From the IMG/VR virus record IMGVR_UViG_3300027969_000072, positions 1 through 64,000 of that record: DNA of 64,000 nucleotides; one strand, written 5' to 3'. Position 1 is the first letter of the stretch. The number at the start of each line of letters is the position of its first letter. This DNA comes from a virus. The notes beneath the pieces were generated by a model. It searched no databases and was not told the origin of the DNA. It was given only the letters and a program-made list of their open reading frames with translations. Shown one piece after another: positions 101 through 62,986 of this stretch. The position numbers were made by a program, and so were the translations under genes.

Positions 101-112
101 TTTAATATATAA
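101..112 (+). promoter_or_regulatory. TTTAATATATAA motif, putative phage promoter
   Basis: Exact TTTAATATATAA four bases before the gp25-like start codon. The same motif recurs upstream of many other gene starts in the window. It may be a -10-like element giving a nearly leaderless mRNA, or an AT-rich translation signal. Confidence 0.45.
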
Positions 113-115
113 TTT

Positions 116-493
116 ATGGCGAATTTTAATTTTATAGATTTCTATATCTGTTATCCAGGACACCCAATGTTTAAATTGGCAGAACTTATCGAAGATGATG
201 TAATCAGAGTTATCATACAAAAGTATGAAATGATTATTTTCACTAATAAAGGTGAAGTTTTAGGTGAACCTAACTTTGGTGCAAACCTAACTGAGTTACT
301 ACACGAAACTAGATTGTCATCAGAATCGATTGAAGGAGAACTGATGGCACAGATTGCAGATTATATACCAGAGGTAGATTCTGTTCCTTACGAATTATAT
401 GTAGAGTTTTTTGAAGATCCTGAAAGATACCAAGAATATATGGTTATAAATTTTACGGTTTCTGATTATCAAGTTTATGCGACAGTAAATTAA
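116..493 (+). CDS. Baseplate wedge protein, T4 gp25-like
   Basis: The 125-residue protein carries the core of the GPW/gp25 family: the strand-loop TNKGEVLGEPNFG followed by helix ANLTELLHE, and a later beta stretch ending YMVINFTVSDYQV. Length fits T4 gp25 (about 130 residues). In T4-like phages gp25 is part of the inner baseplate wedge next to the sheath and helps start sheath contraction. The start is supported by the TTTAATATATAA element directly upstream. Its last bases overlap the 3' end of the convergent SET-domain gene by four nucleotides. I am confident of the family, less so of detailed equivalence to T4. Confidence 0.8.
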   Translation: MANFNFIDFYICYPGHPMFKLAELIEDDVIRVIIQKYEMIIFTNKGEVLGEPNFGANLTELLHETRLSSESIEGELMAQIADYIPEVDSVPYELYVEFFEDPERYQEYMVINFTVSDYQVYATVN

Positions 494-936
494 AGTCTAT
501 AAGAATTATTGTTCCAATAGTTTTCACCATATTCAACAAATATTTCCTCACCAGATTCTATATCTTTTGTTGCAACAAGAACAACATCATCACCATCCAT
601 TGAAATGATACAATTATTTTTAAAACCTGTATTAGAACCCTCTGCATCATTAGCATATTTTGCAAAACAATCAGTTTGTTTACAATCTAATATATCACCA
701 TTTGGTAGGTTCATGAAATAATCATCATCTCCTGATTCAGTTCTTGATTTAACTTCCTCATCAGAAAGTATTTCTCCTTTAAAAACAGAAATAACCTCGT
801 CTTTTTCAATATCAATAGCAGTGAATAAACCTCTACCAGAATTAGGTATCTGTGAAGTTTCTACATATAAATAATCTGATTCATCAGAATTAATTCTATC
901 AAAATCAAAATTTTCAAAAGTTTTTAAGTATCTCAT
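490..936 (-). CDS. SET-domain protein (putative lysine methyltransferase) with N-terminal targeting tag
   Basis: This 148-residue protein has the landmarks of a minimal SET domain. They are the SAM-binding start SQIPNSGRGLFT (residues 28-39), a NHS-C-like segment AKYANDAEG to FKNNC (92-109), and the closing KDIESGEEIFVEYGENYW (124-141), whose Tyr136 matches the family's catalytic tyrosine. SET enzymes transfer methyl groups from S-adenosylmethionine to protein lysines; the compact form recalls viral vSET. In front of the domain sits MRYLKTFENF, the tag seen on many proteins here, so the enzyme is likely packaged and delivered with the DNA. It is first of a minus-strand block of tagged genes when read from the 3' end. 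The substrate cannot be told from sequence. Confidence 0.78.
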   Translation of the reverse strand: MRYLKTFENFDFDRINSDESDYLYVETSQIPNSGRGLFTAIDIEKDEVISVFKGEILSDEEVKSRTESGDDDYFMNLPNGDILDCKQTDCFAKYANDAEGSNTGFKNNCIISMDGDDVVLVATKDIESGEEIFVEYGENYWNNNSYRL

Positions 937-1563: not shown

Positions 1564-3342
1564 TTAGTCTAACATTGCTAGTTTTTTTCTAATAATTGTA
1601 ATTATAGATTGAATACCATTATTTATATTTCCATAATATTGTCTTCTATCTGTAAGTGCTGGATATAAATAACGAACTTCGTTATAATAACTACCTGGAC
1701 GCATTCTATCAAATAAACCATTTAAGTTTGTTATAGACATTCTATCAGATCTTAATAAACTTTTTATAGAATAAATTTCTTGTATTAGAAATTCAACATC
1801 TTCTAAAGTATCTACTTTGATTGATGAAATATATTTATTTATCTCTACAGATAAGTTATCTATATTAGACAGTATTCTAAGATCTTTATCCATCCAGTCT
1901 TCATTAGCATCCGTTTTAATTTTATCTCTAAGTTGTTTAATGAATCTAGTTGTACTATCTACTTTTTTAATTGAATTATCTAATAAACTTTTATATTTAT
2001 CGTTAATAATAGTAATAATATCTATAAAATCTCTATCCTGTTTTAAATCTTCAACTGCAGTTCCTACTAATCCATCTTCTGCAGATCGAATATCTGCCTT
2101 TTCTGCAGTTTTTATTTTTTTAATCATCTTAAAGATATAACCCGCTATAGTTGATAGAGTATCCATTTCATTAGTACTTGCAGAATTATTTAAGAAGTAC
2201 ACACAAGATCTACCACCAAGAACTCTAGTAGCCATACTAGTAAACTTACTAACATCTTGTAATTCTCCAGTTAGTTTAAAACTAGTAGCAATTTTATCAA
2301 AGTATCTTTTAATATTTGCTTTCTTTATATCATCATTAGATATAAGTGCTGTTGCACCTGATCTTGATTCAGTTCTACCAGATTTTACTTCTGTTTTCTT
2401 TACAACTGCCAACTTATCTAGTTTAGAGAAGTCTAATATAATTGCAAAATTTGCATCTTTCAATGTAGAAGTAACTTGAACTGGTCTAACACGGAAGTTA
2501 GACATATCAAATAATGTATTATATCCATAAGGATCTTGACCACCTGCATTAACTTTAGCTTTTAATAAATTTATATTATTACATTTAGAAGTTGTAAGAG
2601 TCCAAGTTTCACTACCAATAGTTCTCCAGTCACTATTCCAAGGTCTAGGATATCTTCCTCTTCTATTTTGAACTGCAAATACCTTAATCTCATTACCATA
2701 TCTTACTTCTTTGTAAACATAAGCAACAATTTGTGTTTCAACATTATAAGCTGTTCCATTCCAATGATTATCCACAAAATCTACTGATATTATATCACCA
2801 GTTTCTAATTGATTTTTTATTTGTGTTTTAGGAATTCTTTTAACTACATCATAGTCCGCAAGATTTGATGAGAATGTTGTTGTAGTTGTATTAGTTGATG
2901 CTCTATAAATACCGTCTACTGCAGTTGTTGCAATATACTTACCTTCTGCATTAAACCAAAATTTAAGTAAAGATAGATCTGATCTTTTAGGTTTGATACC
3001 AGTACCTTTACAAGTACCACAATCAACAACTCTAAATCCTCTACCCCAAGGTCTTCTTACTTTACCATTATCACATCTTTCACCATGAACAAATTCACCT
3101 ACTGCATCACAAGGTTGATCATCAGAAACAACATTGTTAAATTTTAATGCTTTGTTAAAAGGCAAATATGTAAATAAGTCATCACTAAGCTTGGATTCAG
3201 GTATATCAAATTTTTGACATACTGTTTTTAGATTTGATAAAAAAATATTTTTATCATCTTTTCCCTTAATATGTTTAAGTGTTGCGTTAAGTGTTGTAGC
3301 ATCAAATGCTTCAAATAATTTTATATATTTTAGATTTTTCAT
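1564..3342 (-). CDS. Large tagged protein of unknown function with a zinc-knuckle-like segment
   Basis: The 592-residue protein begins MKNLKYIKLFEAFDA, a version of the shared tag with an L-F-E cleavage-type site at residues 9-11. Around residues 75-115 it has four cysteines in a pattern ending CGTCKGTG, the CxxCxGxG form of DnaJ-type zinc knuckles. A beta-rich middle with many aromatic residues follows, then a mostly helical C-terminal third with coiled-coil character. The start overlaps the end of the next tagged gene upstream by four bases. I do not recognise the family. A packaged internal or core protein is the best guess. Confidence 0.6.
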   Translation of the reverse strand: MKNLKYIKLFEAFDATTLNATLKHIKGKDDKNIFLSNLKTVCQKFDIPESKLSDDLFTYLPFNKALKFNNVVSDDQPCDAVGEFVHGERCDNGKVRRPWGRGFRVVDCGTCKGTGIKPKRSDLSLLKFWFNAEGKYIATTAVDGIYRASTNTTTTTFSSNLADYDVVKRIPKTQIKNQLETGDIISVDFVDNHWNGTAYNVETQIVAYVYKEVRYGNEIKVFAVQNRRGRYPRPWNSDWRTIGSETWTLTTSKCNNINLLKAKVNAGGQDPYGYNTLFDMSNFRVRPVQVTSTLKDANFAIILDFSKLDKLAVVKKTEVKSGRTESRSGATALISNDDIKKANIKRYFDKIATSFKLTGELQDVSKFTSMATRVLGGRSCVYFLNNSASTNEMDTLSTIAGYIFKMIKKIKTAEKADIRSAEDGLVGTAVEDLKQDRDFIDIITIINDKYKSLLDNSIKKVDSTTRFIKQLRDKIKTDANEDWMDKDLRILSNIDNLSVEINKYISSIKVDTLEDVEFLIQEIYSIKSLLRSDRMSITNLNGLFDRMRPGSYYNEVRYLYPALTDRRQYYGNINNGIQSIITIIRKKLAMLD

Positions 3343-5042
3343 ATTACTGGTCCAACTATTTCTATTTTTAATCCTTTACTTCTAAGAGAGGATATTATTG
3401 ATTTACTTTCTTTAGTTACTAAGTCTCCAGAAATTATCAATTTCTTCAAACTTTCTGATACAATTGATTTCAAATCCTCTGCAGAATCTAAAGTATATAT
3501 TACTTGTAACTCTTCTAATGCTTTGAAAGTAGAGAAGTCAAAAGATCCAACATTATCACAACTAATTATTTGTAATTTTGTGATATTTGGATTTGATTTA
3601 TTGATATCCTGTAAAACATCATTAGAGAATTTACATTTATCAAATGCAATATTTGTTGTTTTGATATTATCAAAATCCTTTAAAGTATGTATTTCAATAA
3701 ATTTAAACTTAATCCAATCTAAAGTAATGTTTATATTTAATAAACTATCAGGTATTTCAGTAGTTTCGATAATCAATTCTTTAATTCTTGCATTAGGATC
3801 AACTCTAACATTTTTCCAATTACCAATTTGACTTAAATATAATGTTTTAATGTTTTTACCAATCATTTTACCTTGAGTAAGTGATAACTTATCTTGATAT
3901 GGGGATTCTAATGAATCTTCAAAATCTAAATCTGGGGTATATAAGTATCTTTCACCTCTTTGTCCCGAATTTACATTTCCTGTATATTTAGTAACAATTT
4001 CCTCAAATTTATTCTGCATTCTATCTGGATAAGCTCTATCAAAATATAATCTTGTAGGAGCATTCTCTTCAAATGACTCTAAATTTCTAATAATCATTCT
4101 AGATAATGGTAAATGTTCTGATATTTTTTCACCTTCCCAGAAAATAGGAGTTTCAAAAATTAAAAAAGCTGGTATACTATTTGGATCAAATACATTTGCT
4201 AAAATCTTAGAACTATATCCACCACTATATAAGTGTTGACAAGAAGAATAGAATTTAGAAATAGACATATTTAAGATGTCTTTTGGATTGTGACTAATTT
4301 TTAAGAAAATATCTTTATTGAAAATTTCAAAGTCTAATTTATATTGTGTATTCTCGTTTGTTGCAGCAAAGTTTATAAAACTTCCTAAGTTTCTATTTTC
4401 AGAGAATAAATTTGATGATGCCATTTTATCCGCTTCAGACCATCCTTCAACATTTGCATCAATACATTTATCAACTAAATCATTATAATCACCAATAAAA
4501 GAGTTTATATTGATTAAGTTATTACTAAAGACTAAATCACCTACTTTCTTCTCAACTCTAATCATATTACCTTGTTCATCTCTGATTGGTCTGTTTGATT
4601 CATCTTTAGAGATTACAGAAGTTGCCATTGTATCAGCAATTGATAGTTTTCTAAAAACTGAACTGAATATAGCAAGTATTTGATCTAATTTAGGTTTTCT
4701 AATATCAAAACCTTCAAAAATTCTTTCGTATGTTGCTTTATCTTCTCTAAATAAATCAGTATTGATAGATTGATTTAAAACATTACCAAATTGTTCTGGT
4801 AAACTTGAAAACAAAGTAAAAAGTTGTGGCATATCTGTTTGACAAAAAACACCCAATACATCATTCTTATCTTCTTCAGATAACTTCCAACTTCCTTGTA
4901 TAATCTTATCAGTAGGTGTTACCTCTTCATAATCTAAGTATTTCTCTCCCCATTTACGTGTTACTTCTTTAGCTTGTCTTGGTAGAATAACATCACGTAA
5001 TTTTGCTTCTAAAAAAAGATTTCTATTTTTAATCCATTTCAT
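3339..5042 (-). CDS. Large tagged protein with SC/DRxY domain and leucine-rich C-terminus
   Basis: The N-terminus MKWIKNRNLFLEAKL fits the shared tag. The middle (about residues 255-345) carries SSCQHL, then a strand with IPAFLIFETPIFW, then MIIRNL and LYFDRAYPDRM. The order Ser-Cys, strand, Arg, Asp-Arg-x-Tyr also occurs in the twin zinc-knuckle proteins at 59.9-63 kb, so this may be a divergent relative lacking the zinc part. The C-terminal third has irregular leucine-rich repeats (for example NITKLQIISCDNV, ALEELQVIYTL). It is first gene of the minus-strand tagged block and has a TTTAATATATA element upstream. Function unknown. Confidence 0.6.
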   Translation of the reverse strand: MKWIKNRNLFLEAKLRDVILPRQAKEVTRKWGEKYLDYEEVTPTDKIIQGSWKLSEEDKNDVLGVFCQTDMPQLFTLFSSLPEQFGNVLNQSINTDLFREDKATYERIFEGFDIRKPKLDQILAIFSSVFRKLSIADTMATSVISKDESNRPIRDEQGNMIRVEKKVGDLVFSNNLININSFIGDYNDLVDKCIDANVEGWSEADKMASSNLFSENRNLGSFINFAATNENTQYKLDFEIFNKDIFLKISHNPKDILNMSISKFYSSCQHLYSGGYSSKILANVFDPNSIPAFLIFETPIFWEGEKISEHLPLSRMIIRNLESFEENAPTRLYFDRAYPDRMQNKFEEIVTKYTGNVNSGQRGERYLYTPDLDFEDSLESPYQDKLSLTQGKMIGKNIKTLYLSQIGNWKNVRVDPNARIKELIIETTEIPDSLLNINITLDWIKFKFIEIHTLKDFDNIKTTNIAFDKCKFSNDVLQDINKSNPNITKLQIISCDNVGSFDFSTFKALEELQVIYTLDSAEDLKSIVSESLKKLIISGDLVTKESKSIISSLRSKGLKIEIVGPVI

Positions 5043-5070: not shown

Positions 5071-5081
5071 TATATATTAAA
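5071..5081 (-). promoter_or_regulatory. TTTAATATATA motif, putative phage promoter
   Basis: The motif reads toward the tagged gene starting at 5042, 28 bases upstream of its ATG. It would drive the whole 490-5042 tagged block. Confidence 0.4.
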
Positions 5082-27791: not shown

Positions 27792-28376
27792 ATGAAATAC
27801 TTAAAAGAATACAAAATATTTGAATCTATAGAGGAAAAACTATATCATGGTAATAGAAAAGGAGATTTCCCACCAAAGAGAAAAAGATTTGCAGGTGCTA
27901 TATTTTTAACAAGTAATTTAGACTTTGCAAAAAACTTTGCAGGATTCGATGAAAGAGAACAATTTCCAGAAGGAGCCGTTTGGGAAATAAAAATAAAGTC
28001 AAATCTAAAAATATGTGATCCGGTGCAAGTAAAGACAATGAAAGAGTTAGAACTTAAATCAATATTACAAAAAATGATAGATGATAAATATGAAGATCCT
28101 ACAAATGGTAAAAAATTTATAGCAAATAGAGGTAAAGGATTCAAAGGATTTGATTATCATACCGAAAAAGAATTTGATTTAGAAGATGTTTCACAAACTG
28201 TTTATAACTATCTTTGGCTAATAAAGAATGGTTCCTGGCAAATAATAGAATGTGATCCAATTATCAATCAAATAAAGTCAAAAGGATATGATGGATTTAT
28301 GGTTGCAGAAAGAGGTTCTAAAAATGTGGCAATATTTGATGAATCCTCGATTGAAAAATTTAATAAGATTTTATAA
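27792..28376 (+). CDS. ADP-ribosyltransferase-like protein with N-terminal targeting tag
   Basis: After the tag MKYLKEYKIFESIEE (with I-F-E before Ser) comes KLYHGNRKGDF, the LYHG strand typical of ART-fold proteins (H19 in the NAD-binding position). GAIFLTSNLDFAKNFAG then matches the second conserved strand-helix, and VWEIKI the next strand. The C-terminus has GYDGFMVAERG and NVAIFDESSI, the usual final ART strands. Such domains occur in phage polyvalent proteins, and T4 Alt is a packaged ADP-ribosyltransferase carrying the same kind of targeting peptide. A plausible job is modifying host proteins at infection. The catalytic Glu is not certain. The stop overlaps the next ATG. Confidence 0.65.
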   Translation: MKYLKEYKIFESIEEKLYHGNRKGDFPPKRKRFAGAIFLTSNLDFAKNFAGFDEREQFPEGAVWEIKIKSNLKICDPVQVKTMKELELKSILQKMIDDKYEDPTNGKKFIANRGKGFKGFDYHTEKEFDLEDVSQTVYNYLWLIKNGSWQIIECDPIINQIKSKGYDGFMVAERGSKNVAIFDESSIEKFNKIL

Positions 28377-36986: not shown

Positions 36987-37568
36987 CTATTTTTGATTAA
37001 CATTAGATATTTTTTTGATATATTCGGTCATATCTGAACCTGTCTTGTTGATTTTAGCAGTATGTTCTGCAAAACTTTTATTAAAATCATTTTGAATCTG
37101 TGTCAATTTAGGAGTTCGATCCATAATTCTTTTATTTACATCTGCTATTTTTTTAGTAATAACTAATTTTTGTGCAGGATCATTACTCTTATTAGCATCT
37201 AAATCTTTTAACTCTTGATTAAAATCATCAATGAATGCTTTATCATACACATTTTGTTGTTTCATTGATTCCACATCAGCCTTTAACTTCGCCAAATGTG
37301 CATATTCTACAAGAAAAGGATTCCTATCTTTACCATTCTGTATATCAGTACCACCTAGTATTTCCTTTAATTTAGTCTCAATTTGAGTAGGATCTTTTAC
37401 TTCTAAGTATAACTTATCAATTAAAGATTTCTTTGTCTTATACTCATCTAAATTAAGTTTCATAGTATTCATTCCATCCTTTGCTATCTTAACATCAGGA
37501 GTATCTGTCACCTGAACATCAAATTCAGCTTCTTCTAAAAACATAACATATTTTTTTAAATGTTTCAT
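36987..37568 (-). CDS. Tagged coiled-coil protein (193 aa)
   Basis: Begins MKHLKKYVMFLEEAEFD, the shared tag with F-L-E at residues 10-12. The rest is almost all charged helix with heptad character (KLKADVESMKQQNVYDKAF, DFNQELKDLDANKSND). Such a protein would suit a prohead core or scaffold component, which in T4 is helical, packaged and cleaved. Its ATG overlaps the stop of the 906-residue tagged gene (shared A), so the two are made together. Confidence 0.6.
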   Translation of the reverse strand: MKHLKKYVMFLEEAEFDVQVTDTPDVKIAKDGMNTMKLNLDEYKTKKSLIDKLYLEVKDPTQIETKLKEILGGTDIQNGKDRNPFLVEYAHLAKLKADVESMKQQNVYDKAFIDDFNQELKDLDANKSNDPAQKLVITKKIADVNKRIMDRTPKLTQIQNDFNKSFAEHTAKINKTGSDMTEYIKKISNVNQK

Positions 37569-40288
37569 TATATTGTTTTTATTTCGGTTCCAGCTTTCTT
37601 ATCAACCTCAGACTTAACATCACTTTTTATACCTGCTTTATTAAGAATTCCATTAAACTTAGTTCTTTGTTCATCAGATAGTTTATACAGTTCGTCTTCA
37701 TCTACTTTATTAAGTGTATAAACATTTGTTATCTGTATATTATCCGCCTCAGACTGAGTACCCTTTGAATCTACTGTAACTATACTTAACTTCTGATTAG
37801 ATTTTAATTTTTTAAAATTTTCAACAGATATTTTAGTATAGAATACATCACCACTTCTATCAGTACTCAATGGTTTTGTAAAATCACCTTGACCAATTTC
37901 GTGTTTTGGTTCTAATGAATCTAAATAAGTATTAAACTTCTTTAAATATGTTGTAGATATAATCCAAACATAACCCGCAGCAACTTTATCTATAAAGAAT
38001 GATCTTTGTATATCTCTATTAAAAGTTTGAGGATCTGTTTTAGAAGCACCCTTACCCTCTATTGTAAAGAATGTATTTGGTGTTGCACCAATATCAGTTT
38101 GTTTTTTTAATTCTAGTTTAACTGCATTTGCTGCAATAGCGGCAGCATTTTCTGCACTTTCTGCTAACGCAGCACTATCAATATCTGAGGCAGCCTTACC
38201 TTCACTAACAGTACCATCACCAAAATATTTCTCAATAAATGTAGCAACCGCACCTGTTGTAGCAGCACTTTTATATAATGTATCACCATCTAAAACATCA
38301 TTGATAAATTTTCTAAATGAAGCACCTGCCTTAGGCTTAATAGTCCAATCTTCTGGATTAGCAGGATCTGGATCTGTTACTTTTGGTAATCTTAAATTTG
38401 CATTATCAGTAAATATTGCTTGGTACTTACGGTCTTTTCTTATATTATTTACTGCTTCTTCCCACATATCAAATAATTTATTATTTCTATAAGGACCTGT
38501 TTTACCACCATCTTCACCTGATTGACCAAATGATGTATATTCAGATAATGTATTTGTATCAACGGCCTCTGTTCTCTTAGTAATAGTTTTAACAGTATAA
38601 ATCTTATACGCCTTAATGAATAAATTCATAATTGCAATAATTGGATCTATTGTCATCTCTATTTTTTTACCATCTTCTGTTTTTACTTGATCTATTTTAG
38701 TTTGTATAGACTTTCTTTCTTCATCAGAAACAGTATAAGCTCTTACTTCAATACAAGTTTTATTAAAAAACTCTAATATTTTTGCAGAAACGTCATCAAC
38801 ACCTTTACCATCATCCTTTCCTTGTGTCTGTGATGCAGTTCCAGTAGTAGTTGTAGGTTTATTATCATCATCAGTTGGTGCTGCTTGTCCACTACCACCC
38901 TGATTATCTAAAATATTTTTAGCTTCTAAGAATGAATAGTAATCAAATAAAGACTCTTTTTTAGCAGTAACTATAGGTAATTTATTTATTTCTCTCAATG
39001 TTGTTACAAATGTTTGTAATGGAACTTTTAGATCACCTAAACCACCATATAAATTCTCTTTCTCAAATTGAAAAGCTCTTTTAGCAAATCTTGCAATTTT
39101 CTCAGCAACAACTACAGTTTTATTCTTATCATTTAGTACTTCAATACCTTCCGTATAAAGTTTATCTTTCTCTTGTATTGTAGCTTTTTTATCACCAACC
39201 AAATATCTATTTATCTCATTATAAAGATTTTTTATAAGTTCTTTATTACTAGTATTATTTGAATTTGTAGCAATATCATTGATGAATTTATAATCAACTC
39301 CAATTCCTTTTTCTCTTGTAGATATTAAAACTTCAATATCTTTTTTCAATTTATTGAATGCTTGAGTTAAATGGTCTTCACCAACTACAGTCTTACCTCT
39401 ATTTGCACCCCCACCAGTTCCTATTGTATCAACAGTTGCTTCCATAAGAAGAACCATTCCAGAAGGAAGTGATTGATCATCTTTTGCATATCCACTTAAT
39501 TTAGGATTTTTACTTCTAATAGAAGCAATATCTAATTTATTAGGATTTTTAACCACATCACTTTGAATTAGATTTAATTTATCTCCATTCTTTGTAATAT
39601 ATGTCTTTTTTGGTTTACCCGTTGAACCTGTTGAACCAGTAGTATTAACTTTTGTATAGTTGGCCAAAATTAAAGCAAGTGCTTTTAAATTTTTAACCAT
39701 CGTAACATATCCAGTACCTGCAGCTCCCGTATCAGTAGATTTATCACCATCAGTAGAATCTTTATCATCCTCTTTATCCTCTTCATCATCATTTGAACCT
39801 TGATCATCTTTAAATTGATCTAAAAATTCTCTAAATTTCTTCAATTCTTCTAAAAGAACTGCTTTTTTATCAAACTCTGCCATATCAGTAACTCTTTTAA
39901 TACAACCATCAGTCAGTCCTTTTAGAATACCAACTTTGAAATTATTCTCAACTGCGTGTATTAGTTCTTTAAAGAATACATCTAGTTCTATTTGAATTAC
40001 TAATTGTTGATCCTCTGCAGATAAACTATAAACTTTAGCTTGACCTACAATTTGTTCAAACTCATCTTTTAACTGACTAATTAAGCTTTTTATTCTAGGT
40101 ACTTTTGCAGCGATTCTTGCTTTTCTAATAACATGATTTATTAAACGACCTAATAAAGAGTCATTCCAACCCACATCATTTGCAAATGGACCAGCACTTG
40201 AGGTCATCTCTAGTAATGTTTCATATGGAACTCCTTGTATATGTTGTTTCTTCTTTAAGAAATCTTCTCTTTTGTTTAAATATCTCAT
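37568..40288 (-). CDS. Large tagged head-type protein (906 aa)
   Basis: The start MRYLNKREDFLKKKQ is a looser form of the shared tag. A second conserved-looking segment, YETLLEMTSSAGPF, could hold a maturation site (L-L-E). Helical domains alternate with an acidic Asp/Glu/Lys linker (about residues 170-195) and Gly/Thr-rich linkers. The last third is alpha/beta with VAGYVWIISTTYLKKF. No enzyme motif is visible. Size, tag and coupling with the coiled-coil gene suggest a packaged internal protein or core component. Confidence 0.6.
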   Translation of the reverse strand: MRYLNKREDFLKKKQHIQGVPYETLLEMTSSAGPFANDVGWNDSLLGRLINHVIRKARIAAKVPRIKSLISQLKDEFEQIVGQAKVYSLSAEDQQLVIQIELDVFFKELIHAVENNFKVGILKGLTDGCIKRVTDMAEFDKKAVLLEELKKFREFLDQFKDDQGSNDDEEDKEDDKDSTDGDKSTDTGAAGTGYVTMVKNLKALALILANYTKVNTTGSTGSTGKPKKTYITKNGDKLNLIQSDVVKNPNKLDIASIRSKNPKLSGYAKDDQSLPSGMVLLMEATVDTIGTGGGANRGKTVVGEDHLTQAFNKLKKDIEVLISTREKGIGVDYKFINDIATNSNNTSNKELIKNLYNEINRYLVGDKKATIQEKDKLYTEGIEVLNDKNKTVVVAEKIARFAKRAFQFEKENLYGGLGDLKVPLQTFVTTLREINKLPIVTAKKESLFDYYSFLEAKNILDNQGGSGQAAPTDDDNKPTTTTGTASQTQGKDDGKGVDDVSAKILEFFNKTCIEVRAYTVSDEERKSIQTKIDQVKTEDGKKIEMTIDPIIAIMNLFIKAYKIYTVKTITKRTEAVDTNTLSEYTSFGQSGEDGGKTGPYRNNKLFDMWEEAVNNIRKDRKYQAIFTDNANLRLPKVTDPDPANPEDWTIKPKAGASFRKFINDVLDGDTLYKSAATTGAVATFIEKYFGDGTVSEGKAASDIDSAALAESAENAAAIAANAVKLELKKQTDIGATPNTFFTIEGKGASKTDPQTFNRDIQRSFFIDKVAAGYVWIISTTYLKKFNTYLDSLEPKHEIGQGDFTKPLSTDRSGDVFYTKISVENFKKLKSNQKLSIVTVDSKGTQSEADNIQITNVYTLNKVDEDELYKLSDEQRTKFNGILNKAGIKSDVKSEVDKKAGTEIKTI

Positions 40289-46143: not shown

Positions 46144-46174
46144 AAAAAAGACATCTTAAAGATGTCTTTTTTTT
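46144..46174. terminator. Bidirectional terminator
   Basis: Stem AAAGACATC/GATGTCTTT with short loop, flanked by A and T runs, between terminase and clpS. Confidence 0.8.
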
Positions 46175-46457
46175 ATTCATTCACTTCCATGGTAGCAGAG
46201 AGTCCCGCTCCTCTTAGTTTATTTTTCATTTCTGAAATGGTTTCTAAATCACCATATTTAACATCACATTTTCCACTATTATGAATTATGTGAGCACACT
46301 GTGTAGCTTGTTCATATTCATGATCACAAACTTTCATTAGACAACTAATAACGTGGTCAAATGAATTGTAATCATCATTATGAACTATTAGTTTATAAGG
46401 TTTAGATAAAATCTCTTGTACTTTAGACTGTGTTTTTTTCTTAGTAATAGTTGGCAT
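46173..46457 (-). CDS. clpS: ClpS-like adaptor protein
   Basis: The 94 residues follow ClpS closely. YKLIVHNDDYNSFDHVI contains the N-D-D of the N-degron pocket, CDHEYEQATQCAHIIHNSGK carries the pocket His, and GLSATME is the last strand. The wording (HNDD, CDVK, GLS) is that of Bacteroidota ClpS. ClpS binds proteins with N-terminal Leu, Phe, Tyr or Trp and hands them to ClpA/ClpC for ClpP degradation. Here it could redirect host proteolysis. It follows the HAD gene by one base in the same operon. A ClpP gene lies 12 kb away. Confidence 0.88.
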   Translation of the reverse strand: MPTITKKKTQSKVQEILSKPYKLIVHNDDYNSFDHVISCLMKVCDHEYEQATQCAHIIHNSGKCDVKYGDLETISEMKNKLRGAGLSATMEVNE

Positions 46458-58730: not shown

Positions 58731-59468
58731 ATGGATTTTGGAAAAGATTTTAGAAAGTATGCTTTAAGTGAAGGAATTTCTTCTTTAAACTTAGATTACT
58801 TTGAAAAAGGTTTAGTAGAGAATAGTATGACACCATATATTCTTGAAGAGAGAGAAATGAGAGTAACGCAGATGGATATTTTTAGTAGACTCATGCGAGA
58901 TCGTATATTATGGGTTGCCGGTGTTGTAAATACACAAATGTCAACCGTTGTTCAAGCTCAATTGATGTATTTAGACTCTGTTGAGAAAAAAGACATCAAA
59001 ATGCATATTGACTCACCAGGTGGATCAGTTTTAGCTGGATTAGGTATGGTTGATGTTATGAGATATATCAACTCTGATGTTGAAACAATCAATACTGGTA
59101 TGGCAGCATCTATGGGTTCTATCTTATTATCATCTGGAACTAAAGGTAAAAGAGCATCATTAAACTTCTCTAAAGTAATGATACATCAAGTTTCTTCTGG
59201 TGCATCAGGACACGTTGAAGATAATCGTATTTCTCAAATGGAATCAGAAAAATACAACTATATCTTATTCAAGATGCTTGCAGAGAATAGTGGTAGAGAT
59301 TTTGATTATGTACTTGAAAGTGCTAGAAGAGATAATTGGTTAAACTCACAAGAAGCTTTAGACTTTGGATTTATTGATGAAATCATCATAACTGATAAAT
59401 CAACTCCGATTACTACTTACTTGGATGGTTTTGAAGATTACTACACTAAGGAAGTTTTAAGAAAATAA
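58731..59468 (+). CDS. ClpP-like serine protease with atypical triad
   Basis: The ClpP fold is clear: IKMHIDSPGGSVLAGLGMVD, then NTGMAASMGSILLSSGTKGK with catalytic Ser127, and KVMIHQVSSGASGH with His152. In the last part (VLESARRDNWLNSQEAL) the position that holds the catalytic Asp in bacterial ClpP appears to be Ser197, as judged against the D-S-D-R-D-N-W form of Bacteroidota ClpP. The protein has a 45-residue N-terminal extension before the hydrolase fold. It may form a ring for host or phage ATPases, be weakly active, or act as a subunit that alters host ClpP. Stands alone with a terminator after it. Confidence 0.85.
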   Translation: MDFGKDFRKYALSEGISSLNLDYFEKGLVENSMTPYILEEREMRVTQMDIFSRLMRDRILWVAGVVNTQMSTVVQAQLMYLDSVEKKDIKMHIDSPGGSVLAGLGMVDVMRYINSDVETINTGMAASMGSILLSSGTKGKRASLNFSKVMIHQVSSGASGHVEDNRISQMESEKYNYILFKMLAENSGRDFDYVLESARRDNWLNSQEALDFGFIDEIIITDKSTPITTYLDGFEDYYTKEVLRK

Positions 59469-59927: not shown

Positions 59928-61367
59928 ATGTTAAAAAAATATATTGATTTTATAACAGAATCTCATGATTTAATAACAGAATCAAAATTGATCGAACTTC
60001 TATTAGAATCAGATGTAATGTTTTCAGATAACTTTAAGAAAGTATTGGGAAAGATTGATAGTCCTGTTGCTAAAAAGATTTTAGGCTTAGAGAAAAAAGA
60101 CTTACCAGTAGTTGCTAACTACTTTGATATAGATCCAGAAAGAAATGATTACTTATATTTTACTGCAGATAGAAAAGCTCAAGAGATTTTAAATGACCCA
60201 AAAGAATTATATCGTTTTGTAGGAAACAATGGTGGATGGCTAACTCATGGTGAAGCTAATAATGCTATTTTTGGTAGATTAGGATATGTTCCAGAAGGTG
60301 ATGTTTATAAACCTACATCAGCAGAAGTTGGTGAAGTTGTTGAAAAGATAGTTTCTGAAAAATCTGGTAAAACTTGGATTTGGTTAAAATTTGCAAATGG
60401 TCAAGGTGTTTTTAATTTAGAAAAATTGAGACCAGTTGATGATAGAAACAAATTAGTTTGGTCAAAAAATCGTCAGGATGTTAGAGTTGGTAGATCAATG
60501 AATGCTCTTTTAGCTTTAGCCGCTAGAGAAGATGATACAGCTAAATTTACAGCAAGAGATATTGAAATCTTTGTGAATTTATATAAAGCTCAGATGGACA
60601 AATTCAATGATAAGTTCTCATTCTTTGATGTTGTTCAAGGTGATGATATTTATTATAAGTATCAATATGATAATTACTATGACCCAAGTGGTACATTAGC
60701 AAATTCTTGTATGGCAGAAGCTGACTCTAGTTGGTTAGATCCATATACTGAAAATAACACAGTATCTTTAATTATTTATAAATCACAAGATGATGATAGT
60801 AAAATTATTGGTCGTGCAATTCTTTGGGAATGTTTAAATGGTAAAAAATTAATGGATAGGGTTTATACTAATTCTGATTCTGATGTTGAACTGTTTAGAC
60901 AATTTGCACAAGATAGTGGTTGGTGGTATAAATCAAATAATAATAGTTCTTCAACTATAAATGCTATAGGTCCAGAAGGTCAACAAGAAAATTATTTTAC
61001 TGCACAAGTTCAATTACACAAAAGACATGAAAATTTTCCTTATATGGATACTTTAAAATATTATAGCCCTGAAACTGGAATTATATCAAATGAAAATTCA
61101 GAAAGTGGGGTAGTTTACTATTGTGAATCAACTGAAGGTTATTATGATAAACTTTGTGCAACTTGTGAACAAGATGGTACTATTACTTGTCCAACTTGTA
61201 ATGGTGATGGAGAAGAAGTTTGTACTGAATGTAATGGAGACGGTGAAGTAGAAGTTGATGGAGAATCAACAGAATGTTCAACTTGTGGTGGAGAAGGTAG
61301 AAAAACTTGTTCACAATGTGATGGTGATGAACAGATTACTTGTCCTGATTGTGAGGGAGATTACTAA
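59928..61367 (+). CDS. Tagged protein with SC/DRxY domain and DnaJ-type zinc knuckles (twin A)
   Basis: The N-terminus MLKKYIDFITESHDLITES holds the tag with two I-T-E sites. The middle domain (about residues 130-390) includes NSCMAE near 263, NNTVSLIIYKS, GRAILWECLNG and MDRVYTNSDSD. The C-terminal 70 residues carry six CxxC motifs in CxxCxGxG-like spacing (CPTCNGDG, CTECNGDG, CSTCGGEG), as in the DnaJ zinc domain. The next gene encodes a paralogue. Zinc knuckles could bind RNA, protein substrates or a host chaperone. The middle domain is conserved between copies but I cannot name it. Confidence 0.65.
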   Translation: MLKKYIDFITESHDLITESKLIELLLESDVMFSDNFKKVLGKIDSPVAKKILGLEKKDLPVVANYFDIDPERNDYLYFTADRKAQEILNDPKELYRFVGNNGGWLTHGEANNAIFGRLGYVPEGDVYKPTSAEVGEVVEKIVSEKSGKTWIWLKFANGQGVFNLEKLRPVDDRNKLVWSKNRQDVRVGRSMNALLALAAREDDTAKFTARDIEIFVNLYKAQMDKFNDKFSFFDVVQGDDIYYKYQYDNYYDPSGTLANSCMAEADSSWLDPYTENNTVSLIIYKSQDDDSKIIGRAILWECLNGKKLMDRVYTNSDSDVELFRQFAQDSGWWYKSNNNSSSTINAIGPEGQQENYFTAQVQLHKRHENFPYMDTLKYYSPETGIISNENSESGVVYYCESTEGYYDKLCATCEQDGTITCPTCNGDGEEVCTECNGDGEVEVDGESTECSTCGGEGRKTCSQCDGDEQITCPDCEGDY

Positions 61368-61432: not shown

Positions 61433-62986
61433 ATGATTTCAAAATATTTAGACTTTATTACAGAAAGTAAACTAGAACTTCTTTTAGAAGCCAAAATAGT
61501 TTATACCCAACAGTTTTTAGATGTATTAGATCAAATAGATTCTAATATAGCCAGTCAAATTTTATCATATAAAGGTAGAGATATGGATGTTGATAGAAAC
61601 TATATTGATATAAATAGAGATAAAACTGATAGTATATTTTTCAAACCACAAGATAAGATTGATAAGGCTATATACACATTACGTAGTAATGGTGGTGTTT
61701 ATGATAATCTATCAAAGGCTGCTGAGAAAATGGATATTATTCATGGTTGGAAGGAACCATCTGATGGTCAGACTGGAATAGTTATAAAAAAACTTACTTT
61801 AGAGGAAGTTTTAAAGATTTCTCCAAATAGTCCAGGTGTTTGGTCTTATATGTATGATAATAATCAACAATTATTTATTTTTCAATTTGAAGAAAGAGGT
61901 AAAACTTATGAGGCAATTGTTTTAGATAACTATCTTGTAAAAGATGTTTCTAAAATAACATCTACTGAGGTAAATGTTGGTAGATTTGTTAGAGCTTTTC
62001 TAAAAAATTTAGGATTAGAATATAAAGATAAAGAAATTGAAGACTTTGTTGATAAATATAAAAAAGTATTAGAATTACAAAAGAATGTTTTTAAAAGATT
62101 TAAAGAAGTCAAAGGTGATGAAATAAAAAAATGGTATTTAGAAGATAATTATGAAAAAGTTGCAGGACCATTAGGTGGTTCTTGTATGCGTCATTCAGAA
62201 TGTCAGAAATATTTTGATATTTATACCGAAAATACTGATAAAGTATCTATGATTATTTTAATAAGTGAGGAAGATTCTACTAAAATTAGTGGTAGAGCTA
62301 TTCTTTGGTTAGATGAAGAAGGAAGAAGATTTATGGATAGAATATACACTATCAGAAATTCTGATATACTTCTATTTAAAGAATACTGTTATAAAAATGA
62401 TTATTATCACAAAGCAGAACAAAGTTATGAAGAAGATTCTAGTTTAGTTTTTAATGGAAATGAAGTATATGGTAAAGAAAGTGTAGTAACAGTTAAACTT
62501 AGAAGAGAATATTATGATTATTATCCTTATATGGATACTATGAAATATTATAGTCCAGATCTTGGTCTAATCTCTAATAGAGAGTTCCCCTGGTCGAATC
62601 ACACAACATATTATACACTAACTCAAACTAATGGTTCTAATGGACAAGGTTGTGATATATGTGAAGGAAGTGGAATAGTTGATTGTCCTGAATGTGAAGG
62701 AGAACGTACTACAAATTGTCGTGTTTGTCATGGTACTGGTGAATCAGATTGTTCTGAATGTGAAGGAAGTGGTGGAGTAGATTGTCAAGAATGTTCTGGA
62801 TCTGGAACAATAGAATTATTGTCTGGTGAGGTAGAATGTTCTACTTGTTATGGAACTGGTAAGAATGAATGTGAAACATGTGAAGGTGAGAAAAGAGTAG
62901 AATGTTATAACTGTGATGGACGAGGTGAAGAATCTTGTGATATATGTAATGGACGAGGAGAAGTCGGTTGTCCTGAATGTAATTAA
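61433..62986 (+). CDS. Tagged protein with SC/DRxY domain and ten zinc-knuckle pairs (twin B)
   Basis: A paralogue of the preceding gene. The tag MISKYLDFITESKLELLLEA again has I-T-E. The middle domain has GGSCMRHSEC near residue 250, DKVSMIILISEEDSTKISG, GRAILWLDEEG and MDRIYTIRNSD. The zinc region (about residues 406-516) is longer than in twin A, with ten CxxC pairs such as CEGSG, CHGTG and CNGRG contexts. The domain pair arose by duplication and the zinc array then grew or shrank. It has its own promoter-like element and terminator. Packaging is inferred from the tag. Confidence 0.65.
   Translation: MISKYLDFITESKLELLLEAKIVYTQQFLDVLDQIDSNIASQILSYKGRDMDVDRNYIDINRDKTDSIFFKPQDKIDKAIYTLRSNGGVYDNLSKAAEKMDIIHGWKEPSDGQTGIVIKKLTLEEVLKISPNSPGVWSYMYDNNQQLFIFQFEERGKTYEAIVLDNYLVKDVSKITSTEVNVGRFVRAFLKNLGLEYKDKEIEDFVDKYKKVLELQKNVFKRFKEVKGDEIKKWYLEDNYEKVAGPLGGSCMRHSECQKYFDIYTENTDKVSMIILISEEDSTKISGRAILWLDEEGRRFMDRIYTIRNSDILLFKEYCYKNDYYHKAEQSYEEDSSLVFNGNEVYGKESVVTVKLRREYYDYYPYMDTMKYYSPDLGLISNREFPWSNHTTYYTLTQTNGSNGQGCDICEGSGIVDCPECEGERTTNCRVCHGTGESDCSECEGSGGVDCQECSGSGTIELLSGEVECSTCYGTGKNECETCEGEKRVECYNCDGRGEESCDICNGRGEVGCPECN

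Follow-up and report, generated by a model that had tools for sequence, protein, structure and literature searches.

The gene at the start of the window, by which we mean the whole 64,000-nt stretch analysed here (taken from the beginning of a virus record that is 91.5 kb long and itself a fragment), encodes a member of the SET family whose phage copies, and only those, begin with a short tag that has its pattern in common with the internal proteins of phage T4. Further, relatives of this phage have scaffold-like repeats fused to their prohead protease, and one upstream motif is common to tagged genes and virion genes. Given the T4-like tag at its front, the phage particle probably contains the enzyme and delivers it into the host with the DNA. 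We lean, with modest confidence, towards the hypothesis that it is a late-made SET methyltransferase with a T4-type capsid-targeting signal, which would be loaded via the scaffold, ejected with the DNA and would then methylate host proteins. The interpretation in the initial annotation is partly supported, holding for SET identity, rarity in phages and the packaging-type tag, and its observation is confirmed with one correction, namely ND and not NHS-C.

Table 1. Features of the window and its relatives, with the evidence for each
Feature	Position	Strand	Basis or remark
SET-domain protein, 148 aa, complete ORF, ATG start	490..936	-	PF00856 match; dN/dS among phage orthologues
Capsid-targeting-like tag MRYLKTFENF, residues 1-10	907..936	-	kept in phage orthologues, absent from bacterial homologues; genome-wide enrichment
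Variable acidic linker from tag to SET domain, residues 11-21	874..906	-	mean identity 0.51
SET domain, residues 34-137	526..837	-	Pfam match
GxG, G34-R35-G36, SAM-binding loop motif	829..837	-	both glycines invariant in 27 relatives
A95-N96-D97, where N-H-S is usual	646..654	-	invariant in 27 relatives
Y136, at the SET catalytic Tyr position	529..531	-	invariant; aligned with Tyr of EZH2 and KMT2D
Y140-W141, C-terminal of SET core	514..519	-	invariant within ND subfamily
Tagged neighbour MKHLKIFDNF, 205 aa	946..1563	-	no Pfam match; adjoins SET in relatives examined in detail
Tagged 592-aa protein, looser tag MKNLKYIKLFEAF	1564..3342	-	same strand run
Tagged 567-aa protein, looser tag MKWIKNRNLFLEA	3339..5042	-	first gene of minus-strand run
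TAATATATA motif, promoter-like, before the run ending with SET	5071..5079	-	enrichment before tagged ORFs
TAATATATA motif, upstream of gp25-like gene	103..111	+	motif search
Baseplate wedge gp25-like gene, converging on the SET gene	116..493	+	phrog_261, E 5e-6
Protease-repeat ORF	L020:25272-27371 (LR756502); also L030, L031, L032, L033

The SET protein and its descent

In a Pfam search the protein matches PF00856 over the full profile (positions 1-105 of 105) with E 1.4e-13 and 51.6 bits, the curated cut-off being 22.4. Among SET enzymes in PDB, the single sequence finds LegAS4 (8e-7) and EZH2 (2.7e-6), and profile matches are stronger (KMT2D 7e-14, EZH2 1e-13). Judged from these matches, the ORF is a real SET-domain protein, which bears out the family of lysine methyltransferases to which it was initially assigned. 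AlphaFold models from alignments of 7 and 10 sequences reached a pLDDT of 41.6 and 38.7; with values of about 40 these models are unusable, so the fold assignment rests on sequence only.

GxG is the SAM-binding motif of SET proteins. When 27 phage and bacterial relatives are aligned, the invariant residues include G34, G36, G54, Y73, D84, A95-N96-D97, E131, Y136 and Y140-W141. The GRG and the final Tyr that had been noticed earlier are indeed present, whereas the NHS-C-like region holds only in part: its Asn is kept, but Asp stands in the place of His and Ala in that of Ser, and Cys is absent (YANDAEG). Since the ND form is uniform in all 27 relatives, it is a subfamily trait and not the decay of one copy. 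We found no characterised SET enzyme with ND in this analysis; EZH2 and KMT2 carry NH. We predict the protein, a member of the small SET subfamily 'YANDA...YGxxYW' of Bacteroidota, to be a SAM-dependent methyltransferase acting on proteins (at lysine). One could argue that with ND for NH the SET body has become catalytically dead and now serves for binding or as a decoy, as the NHS is not conserved. We give this idea a small probability, because none of the 27 relatives, which come from across Bacteroidota, departs from GxG, the Asn, the Glu, the catalytic Tyr or YW, and because a dN/dS of 0.07-0.26 between phage orthologues points to purifying selection on the gene.

The remark that SET proteins are rare in phages agrees with our searches, since tblastn with three SET queries against 50,697 GenBank phage records returned two distinct SET-bearing phages. 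The sole relative found there with the query from the window is LR756502.1, an uncultured 642-kb phage (copy L015, 63% identity), and the only addition from the two other SET queries is Pseudoalteromonas phage PH1. The latter is a cultured phage, whose SET-like gene (KX365747.1 33104-33340) is annotated as hypothetical. IMG/VR contains 21 further contigs with the SET gene, which together with LR756502 makes 22 copies beside that of the window. A complete 642-kb huge phage is among the largest genomes of Al-Shayeb et al., and the hosts predicted in that work for phages above 634 kb are Bacteroidetes (PMC7162821).

Cellular genome contigs gave no relative when searched with tag-based patterns, while a query with the SET core only led to a Flavobacterium copy (L078), which, as judged by eye, has a menD-like gene on one side and one for an S1-type RNA-binding protein on the other. 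Two other candidates, L151 and L165, turned out on reading to be chance matches to AND-motif DNA patterns and were discarded. A SET homologue of the untagged ND type is patchily distributed in Flavobacterium, with 29 of 250 species genomes having it (about 12%), and more distant ND-type members exist elsewhere in Bacteroidota. A tree that included distant NHS-type rows showed long-branch trouble; the final tree was therefore made without them and rooted by distant ND proteins. In this tree the Flavobacterium-type rows are one clade (100/99), nested inside the phage rows beside the lineage of the window (85/86). Because of this nesting, the tree mildly favours acquisition of the SET gene by bacteria from phages, the tag having been lost.

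The N-terminal tag

The window copy and all 22 phage copies found elsewhere start with M[KR]YLKxFExF, which is absent from 26 of the 26 bacterial homologues inspected (nearly all of them from Flavobacterium); the Flavobacterium copy L078 starts at the position just past the tag. To judge by these alignments, the tag is a separable module. Mean identity among the phage copies is 0.84 in the tag, 0.70 in the SET region and 0.51 in the linker, and amino-acid change is suppressed in the tag (pN 0.10, pS 0.60) compared to the linker (pN 0.30, pS 0.58). A role at the level of DNA or RNA was considered and rejected, since the codons of the tag vary and synonymous change is as high as elsewhere. Given the close homologues in Flavobacterium, it might also be supposed that we are dealing with an ordinary host-type gene in a phage, whose N-terminus is tag-like by chance. 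This is already contradicted and in our opinion has next to no probability, because the tag is kept in 22 phage contigs and absent from the bacterial copies, is more constrained than the linker, and is found on 9-13% of ORFs.

For genome-wide searches the tag was defined as a Met separated from [FY]xxF by 1-6 residues, which had to include Lys/Arg at least once and were not to contain Asp/Glu/Pro. Because the T4 signal was known when this pattern was written, the T4 result is a consistency test and not a blind one, though the pattern could still have returned many other T4 proteins. It matches 6 of 244 ORFs of T4, all three internal proteins IPI, IPII and IPIII included. In this record it is present at 14 of 107 ORF starts versus 3 of 424 internal Met (0.7%; Fisher p 2e-6), and in LR756502 at 81 of 917 versus 13 of 2859 (0.5%; p 2e-27). 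None of 98 ORFs of crAss001 and none of 113 ORFs from the Flavobacterium loci has it. The packaging-type tag that the initial annotation saw in front of the SET domain is thus non-random.

Tagged or untagged status mostly agrees within orthologue pairs, and the tag is common to unrelated proteins in both this record and LR756502. There are 45 orthologue pairs in which neither side has the strict tag, including terminase, sheath, tube, topoisomerase, ClpS-like and ClpP-like proteins; a few of these strict-negative pairs (1564-3342, 3339-5042, 37568-40288) carry looser tags. Tagged proteins of LR756502 mostly have no Pfam match. Single matches are to Acb1 (anti-CBASS), T4 RNA ligase 1, NUDIX, GNAT, methyltransferase, glycosyltransferase and ankyrin families, poly(A)-polymerase-head is matched as well, and the listed Pfam matches of these proteins include no portal, tail or DNA polymerase families.

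Several observations on individual tagged genes may be added. A dense cluster of small tagged genes of the MKHLKxYKIFES type occupies LR756502 1-50000, where 15 of the 81 strict matches lie. Three tagged paralogues (window 59928-61367 and 61433-62986, L002:9008-10405) have near-T4 tags (MLKKYIDFITES) and C-termini with DnaJ-like CxxCxGxG repeats. A 194-aa protein at window 27792-28376 (+) has a tag-like start (MKYLKEYKIFES) and by eye resembles an ADP-ribosyltransferase. As Pfam returned no match for most other tagged proteins of the window, 946-1563 and 27792-28376 included, the isochorismatase-like look of the former and the ADP-ribosyltransferase-like look of the latter are unproven.

With respect to processing, a looser form of the T4 site, [FY]xxF[ILVFM]xE, is present in 20 of 95 tagged ORFs, about a fifth. 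The tag of the SET protein belongs to the [FY]ExF group, which lacks the [IL]xE site of the prohead protease: its aromatic pair is F7 and F10 (FENF), three residues apart in a basic N-terminal peptide, and LDE or LPE occurs further downstream in only some SET orthologues. Other tags, MKIKTFDKFINE for instance, come closer to the T4 signal than FENF does. Without a cleavage site in its tag, the SET protein may be carried unclipped. Since the processing site is missing, we file the SET tag as a variant of the T4 signal class, and the SET protein resembles a capsid-targeted cargo enzyme.

Head machinery and the upstream motif

Head machinery is seen only in relatives, because the record is a fragment without capsid genes of its own. 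In relatives with the head region we find a gp23-like capsid protein (E down to 5e-30), and the gene preceding it contains a prohead protease domain of the S77 family, which scores below the Pfam cut-off (E 7e-7 to 2e-5). This domain is part of an ORF of about 700 aa that continues into some ten tandem NIxYSEY[IL]AENLDK repeats. No other ORF with at least three such motifs was found in the window record, LR756502, T4 or the stretches of crAss001. Between YSEYIAE and the T4 signal YQEFIAE, 2 of 7 positions are different. We infer that the repeat region may serve as a scaffold with built-in cleavage sites, and that the tags may be single copies of a related motif.

The SET gene is the last of a four-gene tagged run on the minus strand, headed by the TAATATATA motif, and several relatives have a copy of the motif directly before SET. 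Of the 92 tagged ORFs, 47 have TAATATATA in the 60 nt preceding them, as against 122 of the 816 without a tag (p 5.5e-14), so it is about three times commoner before tagged ones. It is also located before the gp25-like and sheath genes of the window and the tube gene of LR756502, and it was not found before the topoisomerase, ClpS-like, ClpP-like, NusA-like and tRNA-synthetase-like genes. By eye, a shorter form, AATATATA, can be recognized at the terminase, protease and capsid genes of LR756502. In our opinion TAATATATA is probably a late promoter element of this lineage.

It is conceivable that the tag is a different sorting or control signal, for example for targeting to a phage compartment or for recognition by phage Clp proteins. 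The phage does encode ClpS-like, ClpP-like and Clp ATPase proteins, which is why a ClpS degradation signal was considered, and a cargo list of 9-13% of ORFs is large for packaging, a reading that itself is drawn from sequence. On the other hand, the pattern returns the T4 internal proteins known to be targeted to the head, the scaffold repeats resemble the tag, and the upstream motif is common to tagged and virion genes, so we regard another sorting signal as unlikely. The ClpS variant is not favoured, as the tags begin with Met-Lys/Arg and such a start is not a typical ClpS signal. The ClpS-like and ClpP-like genes were recognized by eye (window 46173-46457 (-) and 58731-59468 (+)) and the Clp AAA+ ATPase by Pfam (L003:11440-13500 (-)); the ATPase is tagged in this record and untagged in its LR756502 orthologue.

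Proposed role and comparison with known systems

We consider packaging and injection of the SET protein well motivated, and the following sequence of events can be proposed. The protein would be made late, together with virion genes, and the aromatic pair [FY]xxF of its tag would dock on the prohead scaffold, a part probably played here by the YSEY[IL]AE repeats that continue the S77 prohead protease. Enclosed in the head, it would enter the cell along with the DNA, and there, as a presumably active enzyme, it may methylate a host protein, or a small number of them, ahead of the onset of phage translation. The substrates that were named at the outset (chromatin-like proteins, RNA polymerase, ribosomal proteins) receive no support from the present analysis.

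Alternatively, the tag may be a packaging signal while the enzyme acts inside the virus as particles are assembled, methylating the scaffold, the capsid or virion proteins that bind DNA, so that delivery would be incidental. The tag, the scaffold repeats and the upstream motif fit an assembly role too, and the SET gene does lie among other tagged, presumably virion-bound proteins. However, the untagged homologues in 29 of 250 Flavobacterium genomes make a cellular protein plausible as the natural substrate, and an enzyme residing in bacterial chromosomes is likelier to have a bacterial substrate than a phage one. Hence we regard a role in assembly as rather improbable and prefer delivery into the host. 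The same untagged homologues provide a natural control, and Flavobacterium is a place to seek the substrate.

A wider hypothesis, which we hold to be evenly balanced, is that huge Bacteroidota phages have an expanded capsid-targeting code, with about one ORF in ten bearing a tag related to the protease-fused scaffold repeat, and that dozens of enzymes including SET would be injected as a takeover and counter-defence kit. The tag would then allow the cargo that uncultured huge phages inject to be predicted from sequence, with 81 candidates in the 642-kb LR756502. No paper found in the open-access literature searched describes a phage SET protein or such a tag in huge phages. If the delivery hypothesis is true, this would be the first case, in the open-access literature searched, of a virion-delivered protein methyltransferase in a bacteriophage, with a parallel in vSET of an algal virus.

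Among cellular SET enzymes, Legionella LegAS4 and the eukaryotic EZH2, KMT2 and SETD7 align with the window protein in their SET domain motifs at low identity, and EZH2 and KMT2 have NH where its family has ND. The ND-type SET proteins of Flavobacterium (L078 and relatives) belong to the same family, with the same invariant residues and about 49-62% identity to the window protein (13 aligned), but they lack the tag and reside in a bacterial chromosome.

The chlorella virus PBCV-1 packages its SET protein vSET, an H3K27 methyltransferase implicated in early host takeover (PMC7019647). Both vSET and the phage protein are small single-domain SET proteins of large DNA viruses. Packaging of vSET has been reported (PMC7019647), whereas that of the phage protein is predicted from its sequence; further, vSET has a eukaryotic host and a histone substrate and does not come from a tailed phage. 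A T4-type tag is not described for it (PMC7019647), and the two are likened here by description, not by sequence.

T4 Alt, an ADP-ribosyltransferase, is comparable to our proposed cargo in that it modifies proteins, is packaged and reaches the host together with the DNA (according to the sequence record note), but its chemistry is different and its N-terminus, MELITELFDED, lacks the tag pattern. As for the T4 internal proteins IPI, IPII and IPIII, the cargo differs, being SET here, and about 80 tagged ORFs in one genome compare to three in T4; scaffold-like repeats fused to the protease are likewise a difference from T4. The T4 targeting sequence is MKTYQEFIAE in IPII and IPIII, while the SET tag is without the [IL]xE processing site. 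In T4, targeting depends mainly on residues 4 and 7, and processing is governed by residues 8 and 10 (PMC9026906). Residues 4 and 7 of IPIII are Tyr and Phe, with the same [FY]xxF spacing as in the phage tags. The likeness thus extends to the N-terminal position, the basic start and the [FY]xxF spacing, and a T4-type protease and capsid protein are also present in relatives within this phage group.
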